DNA of 64,000 nt from contig NZ_CP119075.1 in the NCBI RefSeq assembly GCF_029023725.1, forward strand, positions 1,979,501 to 2,043,500, written 5' to 3'. The notes below the pieces were generated by a model. It worked only from the letters and a program-made list of their open reading frames with translations, was not told the DNA's origin and ran no database searches. Origin of the DNA: Synoicihabitans lomoniglobus (lineage in GTDB: Bacteria; Verrucomicrobiota; Verrucomicrobiia; Opitutales; Opitutaceae). A program made the translations under genes and the position numbers. Positions 8,560 through 16,821 of the stretch are shown here, in pieces (positions within the stretch are counted from its first letter, which is position 1; each line of letters starts with the position of its first letter).

Positions 8560-10077
8560 TTAGCAAGTCGGAAGGCGGGGCAAATCCCCGGGATTTAAGG
8601 GCTGGCTGCGAGGGAAATGGCACGTGAAGGTGGAGCCTTCCCCGGGGGTCGATTGCAGGCTCAGGAAACCGTGATGCAGGTTTACCAGTCGCGTTACCAT
8701 GGCGAGACCGAGCCCGGTGCCGGCGCGGCGGGATTTGGTGGAAAAGAAAGGCTCAAAGATGCGCGCTCTGACTTCCGGGGCTATGCCGGTGCCAGTGTCA
8801 CGGATCGATACGGTGACGTAATCACCCGTCTCCGGACGCGCGGGGTCGGCGGCCACGTCCCGGGACGATTCGGTTTCTTCGCCGACGGCGATGATGATTT
8901 GACCTCCCGAGGGCATGGCGTCTCGGGCGTTAACACACAGATTCATGAAAATCTGGTGAAGCTGACCGGCGTTGGCGGTGATGAGCGGGGGCGTCGTCAA
9001 GAGCGGGGACTCGAACCGCACCTCCACATCCGACGGAAACGTTTTGGCGGCGATTTGAGCGACCTCTTTGGCGGCTTCGCCGATGTCGACTGCGCTGATG
9101 TCCGCATCTGATCCCCGGGAAAAGCTTAGCAATTGGGACAGCATCTCCGCCCCGCGCTGACTGTGGGATTGGATCGTCTCAAGTTGCTGCCTCTCCTTGC
9201 CCGCTGCTTGCAGGAGCAGCAGTGACGCCGTGCCTTCGACCGCGCAGAGAATATTGTTCAGATCGTGCGCGATGCCTCCCGCCAGCAATCCCAGCACATC
9301 CAAACGTTGAATACTGATGAGTTGTTGTTCGAGTTCACGGCGTTCGGTGATGTCGCGAAGACTAAAAATGAGCGAGTTGCCGGGCAGTCGGGCGGCCGTG
9401 ATTTCGACCTGATTCGGAAAGCGCCGGGCGTAGACCAATTCCGTCGTCAAGGGACGGGAATGCCTGCGTTGGACGGCATCGAGTGAGGCCTCGAGTTCGG
9501 CGCTGGCGGCAGGAGTCAACCACCCATGAAAGTTTCCCGAAAGCGGCGCGTCTTCGCTGAGCATTTCCTGCGCGGCGCGATTCACGATGATAATATTACC
9601 GGCGGCATTGGTGACCACCAATCCGTCCGGCGCGTGGTTGATGGCCTGCTCAAACCGGGCGCGCTCTTCGTAGAGCGAACGGAAGCGATTGATGCGGGTG
9701 ATGGTCTTGAGGCGGATTTTCAACTCCGTGGTATCGATCGGCTTCGAGAGAAAGTCATCCGCACCGGCGCTCAAACCGGCCAACCTCGATTCGCGATCGT
9801 TCAAGGCCGTCAGCAGCACAATGGGCACCTCCCGCAAGGTCTCGTGCTGGCGAACACGCCGACAGGTCTCGAAGCCGTCGATTCCGGGCATCATCACATC
9901 GAGTAAAATTACATCCGGGGTGTCCGCCTGCGCCACCGCCAGCGCTTCCAGGCCGGTCGTGGCTTCGAGCAATTGGTAGCCTTCCGGCAGCAACAATGCA
10001 CGCAGCAACGCACGCGAACGGGCGCTGTCATCCACGATCAGGACTACGGGGGAAGGGTTTAAGTTGGTTGGTGACAC
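8560..10077 (-). CDS. response regulator/PAS/histidine kinase hybrid
   Basis: 505 residues with no membrane segment. Order: receiver domain (about 12-125; V-L-I-V-D-D-S at the start, phospho-acceptor Asp in V-I-L-L-D-V-M-M-P-G), PAS domain (about 135-245), HisKA (L-L-A-G-G-I-A-H-D-L-N-N-I near 272, phospho-acceptor His), and HATPase (N box L-C-V-N-A-R-D-A-M, G1 D-T-G-T-G-I-A, G2 G-T-G-L-G-L-A). The H-D-L-N-N form belongs to the NtrB-like/HPK4 kinases. It lies 28 bp downstream of the large hybrid kinase on the same strand, so the two may be cotranscribed and linked by phosphotransfer. Confidence 0.9.
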   Translation of the reverse strand: MSPTNLNPSPVVLIVDDSARSRALLRALLLPEGYQLLEATTGLEALAVAQADTPDVILLDVMMPGIDGFETCRRVRQHETLREVPIVLLTALNDRESRLAGLSAGADDFLSKPIDTTELKIRLKTITRINRFRSLYEERARFEQAINHAPDGLVVTNAAGNIIIVNRAAQEMLSEDAPLSGNFHGWLTPAASAELEASLDAVQRRHSRPLTTELVYARRFPNQVEITAARLPGNSLIFSLRDITERRELEQQLISIQRLDVLGLLAGGIAHDLNNILCAVEGTASLLLLQAAGKERQQLETIQSHSQRGAEMLSQLLSFSRGSDADISAVDIGEAAKEVAQIAAKTFPSDVEVRFESPLLTTPPLITANAGQLHQIFMNLCVNARDAMPSGGQIIIAVGEETESSRDVAADPARPETGDYVTVSIRDTGTGIAPEVRARIFEPFFSTKSRRAGTGLGLAMVTRLVNLHHGFLSLQSTPGEGSTFTCHFPRSQPLNPGDLPRLPTC

Positions 10078-10105: not shown

Positions 10106-12883
10106 CTAGGGCGACGTCTTCAAGAAGGGCCTGATCGCTTCATAAAAGCTCTGCAACGTAAACGGCTTCGGGAGAAAATTATTGGCGCCCGCTCGCTCAC
10201 ACGTCTCGCGGGTGAGTTCATCCGACAGTGCCGTCACCATGACGATGGGAATATGCGACGTCCGCTCGTCGGCGCGGAGCGCGCGCGTCGCGGCAATCCC
10301 GTCCATGACCGGCATTTGCACGTCCATGAGGATCAGTTCCGGGCGGTGGTCGATCGCCTGATCGACGCCGTCCCGGCCGTTTTCGGCCCACCGCACGTGA
10401 GCCCCCAGATACTCCAAGTTGGCTTTGATCAGTTCCGCATTGGTGGGGTTGTCCTCCACAATCAAAACGGTCGGATTGCTTTTCAGGCAATTGACCTGCA
10501 ACGGCGAAGAGGGTGCCTCGGGCTTCGGGCGAAACGGCTGATGCGGAGCCCGGGAGCTCGATATGACCGGGACGCGCGTCAGCGGCAGCTCGACGGTAAA
10601 CTCGCTGCCTTCGCCCACGGCACTGCGCAACCCCACGGTGCCGCCGTGGAGTTCGGTCAGCCGCTTCACCAACGTCAGGCCGAGTCCGGCGCCCTCGAAG
10701 TCGCGACTCAATGTGCGGTCGCATTGATGGAAAGGCTGAAACACGCGGGTGTATTCCTGCGGAGCGATGCCAATGCCCGTATCACGAACAACGATACGAA
10801 ATACGTTGCGGGCGGGAAACTCGGCCGTTTCGAGCGTGACCACACCTCCCGATGGGGTGAACTTTACGGCATTGCTCAGCAGGTTAAGCACGATCTGCTT
10901 CAACCGCTTAGCATCCGCATAGATCACCTTGGCGCGATGTTCGAAGGTGGTCTGCAGGGTGATGTTTTTGGCGGCGGCCGAGTCCTGCAAGAGGCGTATC
11001 AGAAATTCCAACACATTGCGCGGATCGATTGCCGTCGGGCGCAGGCTCAACGTCTTCGCCTCGGTCTGCGAGAAGTCCAAAACCTCATCGATCAAGGTCA
11101 GCAGATGCGTGCCGCTTTCGCTCATGGTGCGCAGGCTGTCCCGTTGCCCGTCGGACAACGGGCCGGTGCGCCCCTGATTCATCAGCTCGATGGAGCCCAG
11201 AATCACGTTCAGCGGGGTCCGCAACTCATGATTCATCATGGCGATGAACTCGCCTTTGGTGCGGTTGGCAGTTTCAGCGTGCTGGAGGGCGGTATTGAGA
11301 TCGGCGGTGCGCTCCTGCACTTTCTGTTCAAGTTCGTTAAGGAGTGCTTCGCGCGCCTGATGGGATTTCTCGCGTGCGGTGACCGCTTCGCCCAGTTCGA
11401 CGTTGGCTTTGCTGAGTTGTTGTGCCGTCGCCTCGAGATCCCGACTGATCCGGATGAGTTCTTCGGCCGGGGCTTGCGCCAGGTCAGGTGGAAGCGGTGC
11501 GGGCTCTCCGCGAGCCAGGGTCGATGTGTAGGCCACTAATTTGTCGAGAGGAGCCGTAATGTCGGCGGCCGTGCGGCGACTGAGTCGGTGGATAAAGATG
11601 GCGACGATAATGACCGCCAAAAGGGTGCCGCTGAACAGCTCCACCACGATGGCCTGCGAGGCCCACAGCGGTTCCTCGACCACCACGTCCCATCCGGTGG
11701 CATGGATCCGACTCGCGGCGGCGCGAAAGCGTTCCGCCCGCGAGGTTTCAGGCCGCCACCGATCATGCGTGAAACTGCGGTGCTGCATTTCCACCGCCCC
11801 CCGAAACACCTCGTTCAATAAATTCTCTGGCGGGACGGCTAACAGACGGGGCGGTATGACCAACATGCGGTGGGCCTGATCCAGGACCATGATCGCCCGA
11901 TCGGTGTTACGGCCATCCCGTTTCGCCAGATCCCCCAAACGCTCGGTGGACAGCTCCATAATCGCGATGGGCGACGACACCTCCGCAGCCGGCGGCAGCG
12001 GCAAAGCATAAACGGTGGTGCTCCCCGGTCGACCCGCGGCGGGAGGCGCGGATTGATCCACCGCGATCACCTGTCCCATTTGATCCACGAGAGAGATGCG
12101 GGTGACCCCTGGCCATTCCCGGCGAAGGGCGATCAGTTGCGCGACCTCCTCCGCCGTCGGCTCTGTTTTGTCCGACCAACCGGCAACCAGTTGGCTCAAA
12201 CCGGCGCGCTGCGCTTCGATTTCGCGAGAAATCCGCGAGCTGACTTCAGTGGCGTCTCGTTCCAGACCCTCCCGGGTGTTGATCGAAACGTAGCGATCGA
12301 AAATCGTAAACGACACCGCACTGATTACGATCACCGGCATGACCGCGATGAAACTGAAACGGTTGACCAACAGTTTGTGCAGAGGCGGTTTGACGTGGGC
12401 CTGCTCGGGTCGATGGAGCCAGCCCCGCAGCAGCCGCCGATTCGCGATCTCCTGCGCAATCAGAGCGACCACCAATCCATTGCCGATATACTTCACCAAC
12501 GCGATGTAGTTGGCCGGAAAACTGGCGTAGGAGAAAAAGAGGAAATAAACGCCGGCAATCGGCCCGCCCACGCACAGCCAATAGAGCGCCGATGCATTCA
12601 ACAGCCGCAGGTCACGCCGATGAATGAGATAGCCCACCACCGCTCCTTCGAGTCCATAACACAACCACCCGACGAAATGGCTCCAGTAAAGGGGGGTGAG
12701 GGCAAACGTCAGAACGCCCGAGATCAGAGCCCAAAAACTGCCAAACCGATACGCGATCAAAAGCGGAAAAATTCCCCCGAAAACGATCTCGATATTAATC
12801 AAAACCGTGGGCCTGAACATATTGACCAACATGCCCAAAATGCCCGCGACAATGGCGGCGAACAACGGTTTTAGCAGTGGCAT
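10106..12883 (-). CDS. membrane hybrid sensor histidine kinase
   Basis: 925 residues. Five or six membrane helices lie in residues 1-160, resembling the LytS/5TM sensor bundle (F-G-G-I-F-P-L-L-I-A-Y-R-F-G). Another helix near 190 opens an extracytoplasmic sensor region to about 400, and a second helix near 415 is followed by a HAMP-like linker and a coiled coil (to 530). HisKA carries F-I-A-M-M-N-H-E-L-R-T-P-L-N. HATPase has N-A-V-K-F-T, D-T-G-I-G-I-A and G-A-G-L-G-L-T. A C-terminal receiver has V-L-I-V-E-D-N and acceptor Asp in L-I-L-M-D-V-Q-M-P. No separate DNA-binding regulator is adjacent. Ligand unknown. Confidence 0.9.
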   Translation of the reverse strand: MPLLKPLFAAIVAGILGMLVNMFRPTVLINIEIVFGGIFPLLIAYRFGSFWALISGVLTFALTPLYWSHFVGWLCYGLEGAVVGYLIHRRDLRLLNASALYWLCVGGPIAGVYFLFFSYASFPANYIALVKYIGNGLVVALIAQEIANRRLLRGWLHRPEQAHVKPPLHKLLVNRFSFIAVMPVIVISAVSFTIFDRYVSINTREGLERDATEVSSRISREIEAQRAGLSQLVAGWSDKTEPTAEEVAQLIALRREWPGVTRISLVDQMGQVIAVDQSAPPAAGRPGSTTVYALPLPPAAEVSSPIAIMELSTERLGDLAKRDGRNTDRAIMVLDQAHRMLVIPPRLLAVPPENLLNEVFRGAVEMQHRSFTHDRWRPETSRAERFRAAASRIHATGWDVVVEEPLWASQAIVVELFSGTLLAVIIVAIFIHRLSRRTAADITAPLDKLVAYTSTLARGEPAPLPPDLAQAPAEELIRISRDLEATAQQLSKANVELGEAVTAREKSHQAREALLNELEQKVQERTADLNTALQHAETANRTKGEFIAMMNHELRTPLNVILGSIELMNQGRTGPLSDGQRDSLRTMSESGTHLLTLIDEVLDFSQTEAKTLSLRPTAIDPRNVLEFLIRLLQDSAAAKNITLQTTFEHRAKVIYADAKRLKQIVLNLLSNAVKFTPSGGVVTLETAEFPARNVFRIVVRDTGIGIAPQEYTRVFQPFHQCDRTLSRDFEGAGLGLTLVKRLTELHGGTVGLRSAVGEGSEFTVELPLTRVPVISSSRAPHQPFRPKPEAPSSPLQVNCLKSNPTVLIVEDNPTNAELIKANLEYLGAHVRWAENGRDGVDQAIDHRPELILMDVQMPVMDGIAATRALRADERTSHIPIVMVTALSDELTRETCERAGANNFLPKPFTLQSFYEAIRPFLKTSP

Positions 12884-13225
12884 GGGAGTGGCAAAATTAC
12901 GCCCGACTCGCGGTGTAACCGGTTGAACGAGCAGACTACAGCTAGCAAGTCAGTTGCATCGACAGCGCCAATAGGAAAAACTACCTACCGACGGACCGTG
13001 ATTTACCTTATGAGCCTCTCTGAAAAGCAGGCATGCCGCGCTTCGATACGGCGGACAACGATGGTGGGGCCGATAAATCACCATCCTGGGCCGTTGAATT
13101 ATCAATCGCCGAAAACCGGTCGGTCGGTTCGGCAGGGGGGGAGGAAACCGCGATGACTTCCGCCTGCGGGGCGGGCAGACTTCGCATGTCGGGCGCGGAA
13201 AAGGGGCCCTCGCGTGATCCAGACG
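12884..13225. other. intergenic region without a credible gene
   Basis: 342 bp between the hybrid kinase start and the terminator of the candidate RNA. Open frames here are short, Arg/Pro-rich and run into the RNA region, with no ribosome-binding sites. The kinase promoter should lie here on the minus strand, but I see no convincing -35/-10 pair. Confidence 0.4.
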
Positions 13226-13259
13226 CAAAAAGACCCAGAAAGCCGAAGCTCTCTGGGTC
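13226..13259 (-). terminator. strong intrinsic terminator with UUCG loop
   Basis: On the minus strand GACCCAGA-GAGC, loop TTCG, GCTT-TCTGGGTC is followed at once by TTTTT (13231-13227). The 8-bp outer stem, inner pairs, stable UUCG tetraloop and T-run make a classic Rho-independent terminator. It ends transcription arriving from 14040 towards 13260, a region with no protein gene. Confidence 0.85.
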
Positions 13260-14040
13260 AAATTGGGGGGTGGGCGTTCGCCACGCGCTCTTTCCCGACG
13301 GTCTGCATTAGGCGCTCTCGCTTTCGCGGGCTGCAGACTCCCCGACGCCACTCCGCACGGCATGCGCGGGTTTCGATCTCATGGCGGGATCGCCCTGACC
13401 GTTGCCGGTCGGGGTTTATTGAGTGAGGCCTCTTCGCCCGGTTCGATCTGCTCCTGCCGGAGTAGATGCGCCGGACAAGGTGCTGAAGTGCTTGCAAGGT
13501 AATTGCTTCACTTCCGCACCGTTCTCGCGGGGTCGGCCCCAGCGGTTAGCTGGGCGTTGGCCCCGTGGGACGGGTCTGACCTCTTACCTCTCAGGCTGCC
13601 TTCTACCTTGCAATGGGGTGACGCGGTTTTGCGCACCGCCCCGTTGTTGAGATCGGTTTGAGCTTTGCCAGACTCACTCGATCTCCTGCGTTCCGATATT
13701 GTTTTCGCGCTACTCGCCCGTTGCCGGGGGAGGCCTTTCGACGGTTTGCATCCGTCCAATATCCGATCGCAGACTGGCTTACTGTAGCAGCCGGAACCCT
13801 CTGGGTCACAGTATCAGCATGACGTTCGAAACTTCCGTCATGCCTGACTCGATTCGCGCGCGGTTTCTTAATTCGCGGCTCATCGCTCAGTTCCTGATTT
13901 CGTGGAGCTGGACCGGGCACGACCCCGGCCAGAGGAACTGGTGATATATGCCTCCCACGGCGCACGAGGCGCACTGCGTGAGGGGGTGAACCGGACCAGC
14001 TCCGATTCCCCATTCCCCGGTTGCCCGGGCGTATCCCAGT
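13226..14040 (-). ncRNA. candidate large structured noncoding RNA
   Basis: About 0.8 kb on the minus strand without a plausible reading frame, closed by the UUCG terminator. Many long complementary pairs can be read by eye (positions 5' to 3'): 14003-13991 with 13916-13904 (13 positions, one T/T mismatch); 13940-13933 with 13895-13888 (8 bp), which interleaves with the first to give a pseudoknot; 13847-13836 with 13824-13814 (11 bp, one bulge); 13763-13757 with 13701-13695 (7 bp); the hairpin 13520-13479 (three stacked stems); 13467-13459 with 13454-13446; 13410-13397 with a GCAA loop; and 13338-13332 with 13307-13301. I could not match it to RNase P RNA, tmRNA, 6S RNA or a group II intron, whose signature blocks are missing. 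The 5' end and promoter are not defined. Confidence 0.6.
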
Positions 14041-14151
14041 CTTCGCTTTCGGCGGTTTTTTCAGTTCGTCGTGCGCTTGACTGTTCTATCAAGGAACGAG
14101 GAAGACCATGGAACATTGTGACCGAAAAGTCACGTTTTTGATATGCACAAC

Positions 14152-14191
14152 TTATTCACCATCAGCGTAATGGTGAATAACCGGTGAATAA
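14152..14191. promoter_or_regulatory. perfect 11-bp inverted repeat plus third half-site
   Basis: TTATTCACCAT (14152-14162) and ATGGTGAATAA (14170-14180) are perfect inverted copies with a 7-bp spacer. A third GGTGAATAA follows at 14183-14191. The AT-rich cluster lies between the start of the candidate RNA (minus) and hrpB (plus, starting 14272), where an operator or initiator-like protein site would control either transcript. Confidence 0.5.
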
Positions 14192-14271
14192 CTTCGCCGC
14201 GACTCTTTTGCCCGGGCGGCATGCGTTTGGCTTGATCGCCATCATGGGGCGGTGATGGTGCTCCTTTTCCG

Positions 14272-16821
14272 ATGCCATCATCTGTCCTGCCCATCTACGA
14301 ATTGGAGAGCGCCTTGGTCGCCGCGCTGCGCGAAACCGGCCGGGTGGTCGTGCAAGCCCCGACCGGATCGGGCAAGTCGACCCAGGTGCCCCGCATGCTG
14401 CTGCGTCATGGGTTTCTCGATACAGGAGAGGCCGTGGTGCTGCAGCCCCGGCGACTCGCGACCCGCATGCTGGCCCGCCGGGTGGCGGACGAAGAGGGAA
14501 GTGCCCTCGGCGGCGTCGTGGGATACCAAATACGCCTGGAGGGGCGCACCTCGGCCGCGACCAAAATTCGATTTGTAACCGAGGGCATCCTGCTCCGGCA
14601 GATGTCGTTCGAAACCACATTGCGGGGCGTGAACGCGGTGGTCTTCGACGAATTTCACGAGCGTCATTTGTTTGGTGACATCTCCCTGGCGCGAGCGCTG
14701 CAGATTCAACGCACGACCCGGCCGGACCTGAAAATCATCGTCATGTCCGCCACTCTCGACGCCGGCGCACTGCGGGAGTATCTCGCCCCTTGCGCGGTGT
14801 TGGAGTCCGCCGGACGGAGTTATCCGGTGGATGTTTCGTATTTGGCGCGGACGCCAAACTTCGATCGCGAGCCCGTATGGGACGTGGCGACCGCCGCCTG
14901 TGCCGAGGCGGCGAGCGACACGTCGGGCGACATGCTGGTCTTCATGCCCGGCGCGTATGAAATCAACCGCACCGTGCAGGCGCTGGAAACGCATCGCAGC
15001 TTGCGTGAGTTCGAGGTGTTTCCTCTCCACGGAGAACTGTCGAGCGAGCGTCAGGACGCGGCCGTCGCGCGGTCCGAAGGCCGCAAAATCATCGTATCGA
15101 CCAACGTGGCGGAAACATCGCTGACAATCGAGGGAGTCACCATCGTCATCGACGCAGGCCTCGCCCGGGTGGCGCGGTTCGATGCGCGACGCGGCATCAA
15201 TACTCTGTTGATTGAGAAGATTTCGCGTGCGAGTGCCGATCAACGGGCCGGTCGGGCCGGGCGCACGGCGCCGGGTCGTTGTGTGCGTTTGTGGACCGAA
15301 CGTGAACATGCCGATCGACCGTCGCATGAGTTGCCCGAAGTGCACCGATTGGACCTGACGGAGGTCGTGCTGACGCTCAAATCCAGCGGTATCGATGACG
15401 TGGCGGGCTTTGCCTGGCTGGAGGCGCCGGAGCCCCGGGGGCTGGAGCGGGCGGAAGCGTTGCTGCATGATCTCGGCGCCATCGCAAGCGGTCCCACCGG
15501 CGCGATCACCGAAGTCGGCCGTCGTATGCTGCGTTTTCCGGTGCACCCTCGCTATGCGCGTATGTTCATCGAAGCGGAAGCGCGTGGTTGCGTGCGCAGC
15601 GTCGCTCTGATGGCGGCCATCACGCAGGGACGAAATTTCCTGTTGCGCGGGGTGTCACGCAGCATCGACGACGCGCGGGACGATACGTTGGGCGATGAAG
15701 GTCGGAGCGATTTCTTCCGATTGATGCGGGCGTGGCAATACGCCCAGGATCAACGCTTTCAGGTCGAGGCGTGCCAGCGACTCGGCATTCACGCGCAAGG
15801 TGCGCGGCAAGTGGGTCCGTTGTTCGATCAATTTCTCCGCATTGCGGAAAAAGAGGGTTTGCTCGTCGGGGACGATCGCGGAGGCGAAGACGAGGTGCGC
15901 AAGTGCGTGCTGGCGGGCTTTTCCGATCACCTCGCGCGGAGACTGGACCGCGGCACCTTGCGTTGTGAACTGGTGCACGGCCGCCGAGGAGTGCTGGCGC
16001 GGGAAAGCGCGTTACAGGATGCGCCGTTGTTGGTGGCGGCGGAAATAAGCGAAATCGAAGGGCGGGGGGGCGAGGTAAACGTGCTGCTGACTCTGGCCAC
16101 GGCCGTGGAGGAGCCGTGGTTGCAGGAATTGTTTCCCGATGATTTTACGGATGGCATCGCGGTGGTCCTGGATGAATCCACTCGCCGCGTGGTCGCGCGT
16201 CGCGAACGGCGCTTTCGTGATCTCGTGCTGGAGAGCAAGCTGACCGCGGAAAAGCCACCGGAAGGCCGGGCGGCGGAGTTGCTGGCCCAAGCGGTCGCGG
16301 CGGGAACGATCAAGTTGGGGGAATGGAACGAGGCGGTGGACCAATGGATTGTCCGAGTGAATCGATTGGCCGAGTGGTTTCCCGAACTCGAAGTCAGCCC
16401 CATCACGGACGAAGACCGCACCACCTTGGTCGAGCAGATCTGCCACGGCAGTTACGGCGCGCGCGATTTGAAGGACAAACCGGTCATGCCCGTGCTGCGA
16501 CAGTGGCTGCGCGCCGAGCAACTTGCGGTGCTGGATGACTATCTTCCCGAGCGGATCGTGATGGACAACGGTCGCCGCGCTCGAGTGCGTTACGCGGCCG
16601 AAGGTCCCCCCATCCTGAGTGCCCGGGTGCAGGAATTGGTCGAAATCAAATCAACTTACGCGCTGGGACATGGGCGCGTGCCCGTGCGTTTCGAGGTGTT
16701 GGCCCCCAACCAGCGCCCGATTCAGGTCACGGACAATCTGCGCAAATTTTGGGACGATTTGTATCCGAACAAGATCCGGCCGGAACTCTCCCGGCACTAC
16801 CCGAAGCACCCGTGGCCGTAG
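14272..16821 (+). CDS. hrpB: ATP-dependent helicase HrpB
   Basis: 849 residues, near the usual 800-850. Walker A is A-P-T-G-S-G-K-S-T (about 33-41), the DEAH-type box reads V-F-D-E-F-H-E-R-H, motif III is M-S-A-T-L-D-A, and motif VI region is Q-R-A-G-R-A-G-R-T. After the helicase-associated domain comes the HrpB-specific C-terminus, with a last block close to P-I-Q-V-T-D-N-L-R-K-F-W and Y-P-K-H-P-W-P. HrpB is a DExH helicase of uncertain physiological role, presumably in RNA metabolism. It is a single transcription unit facing the glutaredoxin-like gene. The start has no strong Shine-Dalgarno sequence. Confidence 0.94.
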   Translation: MPSSVLPIYELESALVAALRETGRVVVQAPTGSGKSTQVPRMLLRHGFLDTGEAVVLQPRRLATRMLARRVADEEGSALGGVVGYQIRLEGRTSAATKIRFVTEGILLRQMSFETTLRGVNAVVFDEFHERHLFGDISLARALQIQRTTRPDLKIIVMSATLDAGALREYLAPCAVLESAGRSYPVDVSYLARTPNFDREPVWDVATAACAEAASDTSGDMLVFMPGAYEINRTVQALETHRSLREFEVFPLHGELSSERQDAAVARSEGRKIIVSTNVAETSLTIEGVTIVIDAGLARVARFDARRGINTLLIEKISRASADQRAGRAGRTAPGRCVRLWTEREHADRPSHELPEVHRLDLTEVVLTLKSSGIDDVAGFAWLEAPEPRGLERAEALLHDLGAIASGPTGAITEVGRRMLRFPVHPRYARMFIEAEARGCVRSVALMAAITQGRNFLLRGVSRSIDDARDDTLGDEGRSDFFRLMRAWQYAQDQRFQVEACQRLGIHAQGARQVGPLFDQFLRIAEKEGLLVGDDRGGEDEVRKCVLAGFSDHLARRLDRGTLRCELVHGRRGVLARESALQDAPLLVAAEISEIEGRGGEVNVLLTLATAVEEPWLQELFPDDFTDGIAVVLDESTRRVVARRERRFRDLVLESKLTAEKPPEGRAAELLAQAVAAGTIKLGEWNEAVDQWIVRVNRLAEWFPELEVSPITDEDRTTLVEQICHGSYGARDLKDKPVMPVLRQWLRAEQLAVLDDYLPERIVMDNGRRARVRYAAEGPPILSARVQELVEIKSTYALGHGRVPVRFEVLAPNQRPIQVTDNLRKFWDDLYPNKIRPELSRHYPKHPWP

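Follow-up and report, generated by a model that had tools for sequence, protein, structure and literature searches.

A stand-alone, pseudoknotted MISL-family RNA of Verrucomicrobiota with a conserved DnaA-box-like upstream array and a boxA-like start

Results

The locus and its RNA family

The locus described here lies in a 64,000-nucleotide stretch of the Synoicihabitans lomoniglobus genome (henceforth the window) and consists of a large noncoding RNA gene on the minus strand, preceded by two pairs of DnaA-box-like sites, a candidate promoter and a boxA-like 5' motif, and followed by an intrinsic terminator, with hrpB as its divergent neighbour (Table 1). Searching the window against Rfam 15 with cmscan, we found a match to RF03079 (MISL RNA) that scores 484.5 bits, well over the family's gathering score (274.6), and covers the model from end to end (i.e., it is not cut off). 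Within positions 13150-14200, a permissive cmscan returned MISL as the sole Rfam match at E ≤ 1; at that threshold there was no covariance-model match to OLE, GOLLD or ROOL, nor to RNase P, tmRNA or a group II intron. RNase P was located elsewhere in the source genome (G000:C1:299425-299869), in which MISL is single-copy. The original description of the family is reportedly that of Weinberg et al. in 2017. MISL RNA also appears in the Ribonanza preprint. Of 136 relatives, only 10, 10 and 38, respectively, keep the three tested open reading frames inside the region open; these frames are not conserved, and the RNA is noncoding.

These results bear on a preliminary description of the same stretch, which was made from the sequence alone. 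Its account of a ~0.8-kb minus-strand region without a protein gene, resembling neither RNase P, tmRNA nor a group II intron and ending in a UUCG-loop terminator with five Ts, agrees with what we found, as does its broader picture of a stand-alone noncoding RNA that is large and pseudoknotted and has an intrinsic terminator behind it. By contrast, its statement that the RNA belongs to no known family was overturned by the Rfam cmscan that it had itself proposed as a check, because the full-length RF03079 match lies far above the gathering score. The likening to OLE, GOLLD and ROOL is apt as regards size class and wrong as regards undescribed status (cmscan finds MISL and none of those three), and the 5' boundary placed at 14040 falls ~57 nt short. 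The large structured RNA is therefore real, and is a member of an already catalogued, functionally unknown family. We take window positions 14097-13227 (minus strand) to be a single-copy gene for a ~870-nt stand-alone MISL-family RNA, as part of an overall explanation that we consider probable (see Discussion).

Table 1 Positions in the window of the MISL gene, its upstream sites, its helices and its divergent neighbour
Feature	Positions	Strand	Description	Basis
hrpB	14272..16821	+	DEAH-box helicase gene, divergent neighbour; context, outside the RNA gene	NCBIfam TIGR01970
Predicted double DnaA box 1	14172..14191	-	Two TTATTCACC 9-mers (14191-14183, 14180-14172), 2-bp gap	Sequence
Predicted double DnaA box 2	14141..14160	read on +	ATATGCACA-AC-TTATTCACC, 2-bp gap	Sequence
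Candidate promoter	14105..14133	-	-35 GTGACT (14133-14128), 17-bp spacer, -10 CATGGT (14110-14105)	Sequence; weak match, inferred
RNA 5' end	14083..14097	-	boxA-like GTTCCTTGATA (14097-14087) inside GTTCCTTGATAGAAC	5' motif in 135/139 loci
5' stem P0	14037..14082	-	Arms 14082-14079 and 14041-14038, outside the Rfam model	Covariation
MISL RNA core	13273..14036	-	RF03079 positions 1-751	cmscan, 484.5 bits, E 7e-146
Helix E	13774..13999	-	13999-13995 (hairpin loop) with 13778-13774 (distal strand)	Weak
Pseudoknot helix C	13899..13922	-	Hairpin loop 13922-13918 with 13904-13899	Helix sum 322
Long-range helix A	13594..13792	-	13792-13787 (GGCUGC) with 13599-13594 (GCAGCC)	Helix sum 363; compensatory changes at 6/6 pairs
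Long-range helix B	13492..13613	-	13613-13608 with 13497-13492	Helix sum 336; compensatory changes at 6/6 pairs
Helix D	13346..13386	-	13386-13382 (hairpin loop) with 13350-13346 (downstream strand)	Helix sum 165; suggestive
Intrinsic terminator	13227..13259	-	12-bp-arm hairpin with UUCG loop (13259-13232) and U5 (13231-13227)	Sequence

The ends of the gene

To define the extent of the gene we compared 139 MISL loci; the G459 fragments, the G216 and G276 loci and several f62 genomes lay outside this comparison. We found that the gene reaches ~61 nt upstream of the Rfam model start, with conserved RNA beginning near 14097 in the window. Specifically, the 5' motif GTTCNTTGANAGAAC was present with at most three mismatches in 135 of the 139 loci (exactly in 110; missing from L106, L107, L108 and L168), and in 98 of these 135 it stood 58-61 nt ahead of the Rfam start. 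The P0 stem, the 3' arm of which adjoins GGAUAA, showed two-sided changes at all six pairs in an alignment of 45 sequences (of 123 available rows), and the whole structure of that alignment held 91 two-sided cells compared with 32 in shuffles. In the window, the 5' motif begins 7 nt after the weak -10 element, and in other families a consensus ta...t immediately precedes the motif.

The start of the RNA, GTTCNTTGANA, resembles the boxA found in rRNA leaders of the class. The pattern [GAT][CT]TC[TAC]TTGA[ACGT][AG] was matched by 16 of 32 class rRNA leaders, the nearest match lying 114-197 nt before 16S (e.g., GTTCTTTGAAA, GTTCCTTGAAA and GCTCATTGAAA), and the 13 plus-strand leaders gave nine matches to the boxA pattern, compared with 0.24 in shuffles. 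MISL carries a boxA-like core resembling that of the clade's own rRNA leaders, and Nus action on it is predicted. The MISL core also sits in a palindrome and could alternatively be read as a hairpin; families f11, f22 and f30 have an imperfect palindrome and nevertheless retain TCTTTGACA, which favours boxA over a mere hairpin.

At the other end, a terminator-like hairpin was found (by a crude rule) at the matching place in 133 of 137 MISL loci. Lengths vary in one family: in five of the seven f43 loci (L145-L149) MISL is ~940 nt long, exceeding the model.

Fold and pseudoknots

Covariation was scored in 137 aligned MISL sequences (two fragments, from G164 and G005, were excluded) against alignments simulated on their tree; this null, in which parsimony substitutions were re-dealt along the tree in 10 simulations, is distinct from that of R-scape. 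Significant covariation (E ≤ 0.05) was detected at 23 pairs, 19 of which are nested pairs of the Rfam MISL structure, so that the region, in which the preliminary description had noted many complementary pairs, does have many true stems. The pseudoknot named in that description, an interleaving of 14003-13991/13916-13904 with 13940-13933/13895-13888, stands in one half only. The latter helix is a consensus MISL stem, with seven of its eight pairs canonical in 91-98% of sequences and the outermost in 69%. The former showed no covariation in the 137 sequences: its ten testable pairs were canonical in 10-92% (three pairs in gap-rich columns were dropped), and it clashes with the covarying Rfam hairpin 14007-14001/13995-13989. 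The interleaved pseudoknot therefore falls, since this helix is unsupported.

That the RNA is pseudoknotted, as also claimed at the outset, is nonetheless backed by covariation in other helices (Table 1). In a helix-level scan, for which the null maximum over 10 simulated alignments was 127, helices A, B and C scored highest, and in helix C the pair 13919-13903 was individually significant. A separate alignment for helices A and B (38 of 50 selected rows) revealed two-sided changes in 12 of 12 pairs, with 65 two-sided cells against 12 in shuffles; none of 500 shuffles reached 65, and sliding the partner strand by 1-3 columns left only 4 to 10 such cells. Judged by these covariation patterns, each of helices A, B and C forms a pseudoknot with Rfam stems. 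As the structure printed by cmscan omits pseudoknots, we do not claim these helices to be new to the family's authors. Helix D contains no individually significant pair, and helix E, with a sum of 110.6, stays below the null maximum while being canonical in 129-135 of 135-137 sequences. We also observed a lone, strongly covarying pair, 13386-13351 (CG in 69 and UA in 63 sequences), which is significant by itself, lacks stacked neighbours and may reflect either a tertiary contact or one ancestral change.

DnaA-box-like sites upstream of MISL

We then considered the sequence ahead of the gene. Among the 135 loci with a 5' motif, 134 had 230 nt of upstream sequence, and boxes were searched for in the 200 nt upstream of the motif (-230 to -30). 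An exact copy of the 9-mer TTATNCACA was found in 56 of the 134 loci, compared with a mean of 0.7 and a maximum of 4 in shuffles. When up to one mismatch was allowed, the count rose to 128 loci and 348 sites; shuffles averaged 16.4 such sites (maximum 23), and random flanks averaged 6 (maximum 15). Most of the sites (254 of 348) fall between -120 and -51 relative to the 5' motif, immediately ahead of the promoter. On the other side of the gene, the first 200 nt downstream in the same 134 loci contained 0 exact and 7 one-mismatch sites. A motif-free search returned GTGAATAA, present in 117 of the 134 loci, as the top enriched 8-mer.

We defined a double box as a same-direction pair with a gap of 2 or 3 bp and at most three mismatches in all. 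Under this cut-off 92 of the 134 loci carried a double box and 42 did not; shuffles gave on average 0.4 such loci and random flanks 0.3, with a maximum of 2 in either case. At least one double-box locus occurred in 32 of the 36 testable bacterial families. Counting pairs by their spacing gave 112 at 2 bp, 20 at 3 bp and at most 10 at any other gap. Each of the window's two pairs has two mismatches in all. The same spacing is known from E. coli, where, according to PMC11317965, DnaA prefers box pairs 2 or 3 bp apart in vivo. MISL has box pairs at this spacing upstream of its candidate promoter, as expected of a member of a DnaA regulon; DnaA binding is predicted, and DnaA control of MISL is strongly predicted.

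Genome-wide, the pattern TTATNCAC-N1-30-TTATNCAC matches the 5.9-Mb source genome once, at double box 1, and its backwards-read control also matches once. When 15 genomes were scanned for this tandem pair, a match beside MISL was found only in G000 and G002, six genomes had matches elsewhere and seven had none; the backwards-read control gave one match each in G000 and G002.

The same motif at other genes, and controls

The related motif GTGAAYAA-N2-4-GTGNAYA occurs in 217 of 384 genomes of the class, MISL carriers and others alike. We examined 30 motif loci, which were picked by the search tool and are not a random sample. In 16 of them the motif has the same kind of protein next to it, as judged by protein similarity, and the two of these that were tested (L230 and L245) encode DnaA (NCBIfam TIGR00362). 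Upstream sequence was present for nine of 12 dnaA loci, and in seven of the nine (from G000, G002, G116, G020, G138, G055 and G397) the GTGAATAA core lies ~50-70 nt before the DnaA match.

At L215, L217, L220 and L223, box-core pairs stand beside ribonucleotide reductase, MraZ-like and PhoH2-like genes. The NCBIfam assignments of the tandem-pair neighbours are B12-dependent ribonucleotide reductase, ribonucleotide reductase beta, MraZ and PhoH2, of which the first, third and fourth match below the curated cut-offs and the first and fourth are incomplete at the locus edge. Box-core pairs beside these genes would outline a DnaA regulon in Verrucomicrobiota. In E. coli, dnaA and nrdAB are established targets of DnaA, and control of ribonucleotide reductase genes by DnaA has been proposed for other bacteria (PMC8203912).

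As a control we used rnpB in 30 of the same genomes, which had double boxes in 0 of 30, no exact boxes and a one-mismatch site in 3 of 30, compared with double boxes in 25 and single sites in all 30 for MISL. Leaders of rRNA operons likewise had double boxes in 0 of 32.

Neighbouring genes

In family f1, to which the window belongs, MISL has a divergent hrpB beside it in 56 of 68 loci and a codirectional typA downstream in 53, with one or both in 61. In other families hrpB or typA was near MISL in 0 of 71 loci, and the boxes were still present. Conversely, in family members that lack MISL, hrpB and typA remain neighbours in 8 loci. Within 600 nt upstream of hrpB at 16 such MISL-less loci, the TTATNCAC core was found in 0 of 16, the 5' motif in none and a single one-mismatch site in 2. 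A search for MISL remnants in 30 HrpB-family loci without MISL gave one nhmmer match only (E 4.8), and a permissive cmscan of 12 of these loci found no MISL (three sub-threshold microRNA matches at L172 were taken as chance). Across these comparisons, the boxes accompany MISL and not the neighbouring genes.

Two further genes, a response-regulator/kinase gene (8560-10077) and a hybrid sensor kinase gene (10106-12883), both on the minus strand, lie between MISL and typA in the window. Here typA is 4.8 kb downstream of MISL, compared with a family median of 971 nt, and the two kinase genes may be later insertions. At one of the 139 loci (L135, in G317), rnpB starts ~90 nt after MISL on the same strand.

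Spread and descent

MISL was found in 75 of 189 relatives (64 of the 154 of high quality) and in 93 of 384 genomes of the class. A draw across the phylum gave 30 carriers among 387 genomes, 2 of them outside the class, and in a scan of named genomes the titles that state a group were, among the matches listed (80 of 118), all Verrucomicrobiota, with one reading 'bacterium' only. With no match in the other 291 class genomes, MISL cannot be essential to replication in general. In the MISL tree, f1 is a single clade (67 of 67 sequences). Of the 17 other families with several members, 14 are likewise monophyletic, the exceptions being f34, f41 and f60. Four genomes (G100, G073, G053 and G097) carry a second, divergent MISL copy without an adjoining hrpB (L072, L087, L095 and L098), and these second copies form a clade of their own. 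Searches of 50,697 phage records and 72,556 plasmid records gave no MISL match, and IMG/VR gave two MISL stretches. We read this distribution as mostly vertical descent with many losses, losses being the simpler account.

Discussion

Comparison across loci documents an RNA core and its fold, an extra 5' domain, a terminator and a conserved array of DnaA-box-like sites upstream of the candidate promoter. The explanation that we consider probable, on the strength of sequence comparison, is that MISL is a stand-alone, trans-acting RNA of a Verrucomicrobiota DnaA regulon, made with antitermination of the rRNA type. Under this explanation, each double box would be occupied by a DnaA dimer. Bound 44-94 bp ahead of the start, DnaA would activate or tune transcription from just upstream of the -35 element, so that MISL output would follow DnaA activity in the same way as that of dnaA and the ribonucleotide reductase genes. 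At the 5' boxA, a Nus complex would modify RNA polymerase as on rRNA operons, allowing the long untranslated transcript to escape Rho, fold through its at least three pseudoknots and end at the intrinsic terminator. Less certainly, the mature RNA would then work as a trans-acting machine, either alone or as a ribonucleoprotein, in some process linked to replication start or the cell cycle. A role for MISL in replication or the cell cycle is guessed from its presumed regulon, and we give it somewhat less than an even chance; the full combination, in which a DnaA-switched, rRNA-type-antiterminated, pseudoknotted MISL acts in trans in chromosome replication or cell-cycle control in Verrucomicrobiota, is a shade more tentative still.

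The boxes themselves could be explained in other ways. E. coli has sites that titrate DnaA (datA) or reactivate it (DARS), and the boxes might form a site of this kind, with MISL either a passenger or transcribed to clear the site. Such a site would allow for the lack of a fixed distance to dnaA and for the cluster of five box-like sites at the G002 locus (L218); yet the concentration of 254 of 348 sites just upstream of the promoter, the near absence of sites downstream of the gene (0 exact, 7 one-mismatch sites in 134 loci) and the strong structural selection on the RNA itself make this unlikely in our view. A little less likely again is that a regulator other than DnaA binds the motif and that MISL belongs to another regulon. 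The identity of the binding protein is deduced from sequence only, and many f1 sites end in CACC, not CACA (exact TTATNCACA is found in 18 of 68 f1 loci); against this, the consensus, the 2-3 bp pair rule (PMC11317965) and the occurrence of the motif beside dnaA and ribonucleotide reductase genes are hallmarks of DnaA.

Other readings concern the RNA. Given the codirectional typA downstream in 53 of 68 f1 loci, MISL could be a cis-acting leader or attenuator of that gene (TypA/BipA), which follows it in Opitutaceae, but outside f1 none of 71 loci has typA near MISL, 133 of 137 loci have a terminator-like hairpin after MISL and two kinase genes intervene in the window, all of which render this reading very improbable. 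We give just as little weight to the idea that the RNA gene is mobile or derived from a phage. Such an origin would account for the patchy spread (MISL is in 64 of the 154 high-quality relatives), and the second copy in four genomes and the three of 17 other multi-member families that are not monophyletic speak for it; it sits poorly with the lack of phage and plasmid matches, the count of only two IMG/VR stretches, the clade structure of f1 (67 of 67 sequences) and of 14 of the 17 other families, and the synteny in f1. As for the undescribed ornate RNA family of the preliminary description, suggested by size, complexity of fold and pseudoknots, the RF03079 match leaves it a negligible chance.

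Two more specific roles were considered and rejected. The MISL locus is not an origin of replication: GC skew keeps its sign at MISL in the window, and the distance to dnaA varies. This distance ranges from 0.04 to 0.44 of the genome and, not being fixed, does not build replication timing in by position. Antisense control of dnaA mRNA was likewise dismissed, as we found no consistent duplex at the dnaA mRNA start in 12 genomes when energies were compared with those of shuffled targets; duplex energies in G002 and G010 were below all 40 shuffles, at different MISL positions.

To our knowledge, bacterial large structured RNAs are mostly orphans, with folds that are known or predicted and little to link them to a process. 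The putative DnaA-box promoter, with double boxes in 32 of 36 testable families, links MISL to the replication initiator and, being conserved, opens its function to standard experiments such as DnaA depletion, ChIP and gene deletion. The 5' extension and the pseudoknots mean that RNA for structural work should be made full length from boxA and not from the Rfam start. We did not find the DnaA-box promoter, the boxA-like start or the 5' domain in the literature searched, which did not cover the family's original description. If the explanation is true, MISL would be, as far as is known and as far as the literature was searched, the first ornate RNA in a DnaA regulon.

Considering known systems, the closest is the MISL family (RF03079) itself: the gene matches the model over its full length, has the same nested fold and is a stand-alone intergenic gene. 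It differs in being ~61 nt longer upstream (the boxA-like start and P0), in having covarying long-range helices beyond the nested cmscan structure and in its predicted DnaA-box promoter. OLE, GOLLD and ROOL are bacterial noncoding RNAs of the same size class and of pseudoknotted complexity; MISL resembles them in size class and differs in matching none of their covariance models at E ≤ 1 and in having no phage or plasmid match and only two viral stretches. The resemblance to rRNA-operon boxA/Nus antitermination is that MISL is a long untranslated RNA whose 5' end carries a boxA-like GTTC[TCA]TTGA[AT]A; unlike in rRNA operons, the MISL core is part of a GUUC...GAAC palindrome at the very start, and Nus binding is putative. 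BoxA also precedes CRISPR arrays. Finally, as in the E. coli dnaA, nrdAB, DARS2/mutH, polA and purH promoters, for which PMC11317965 and PMC8203912 give DnaA-box pairs 2 or 3 bp apart upstream, such pairs precede MISL, with the difference that they stand before a gene for a large structured noncoding RNA and that DnaA binding is predicted from its sequence.
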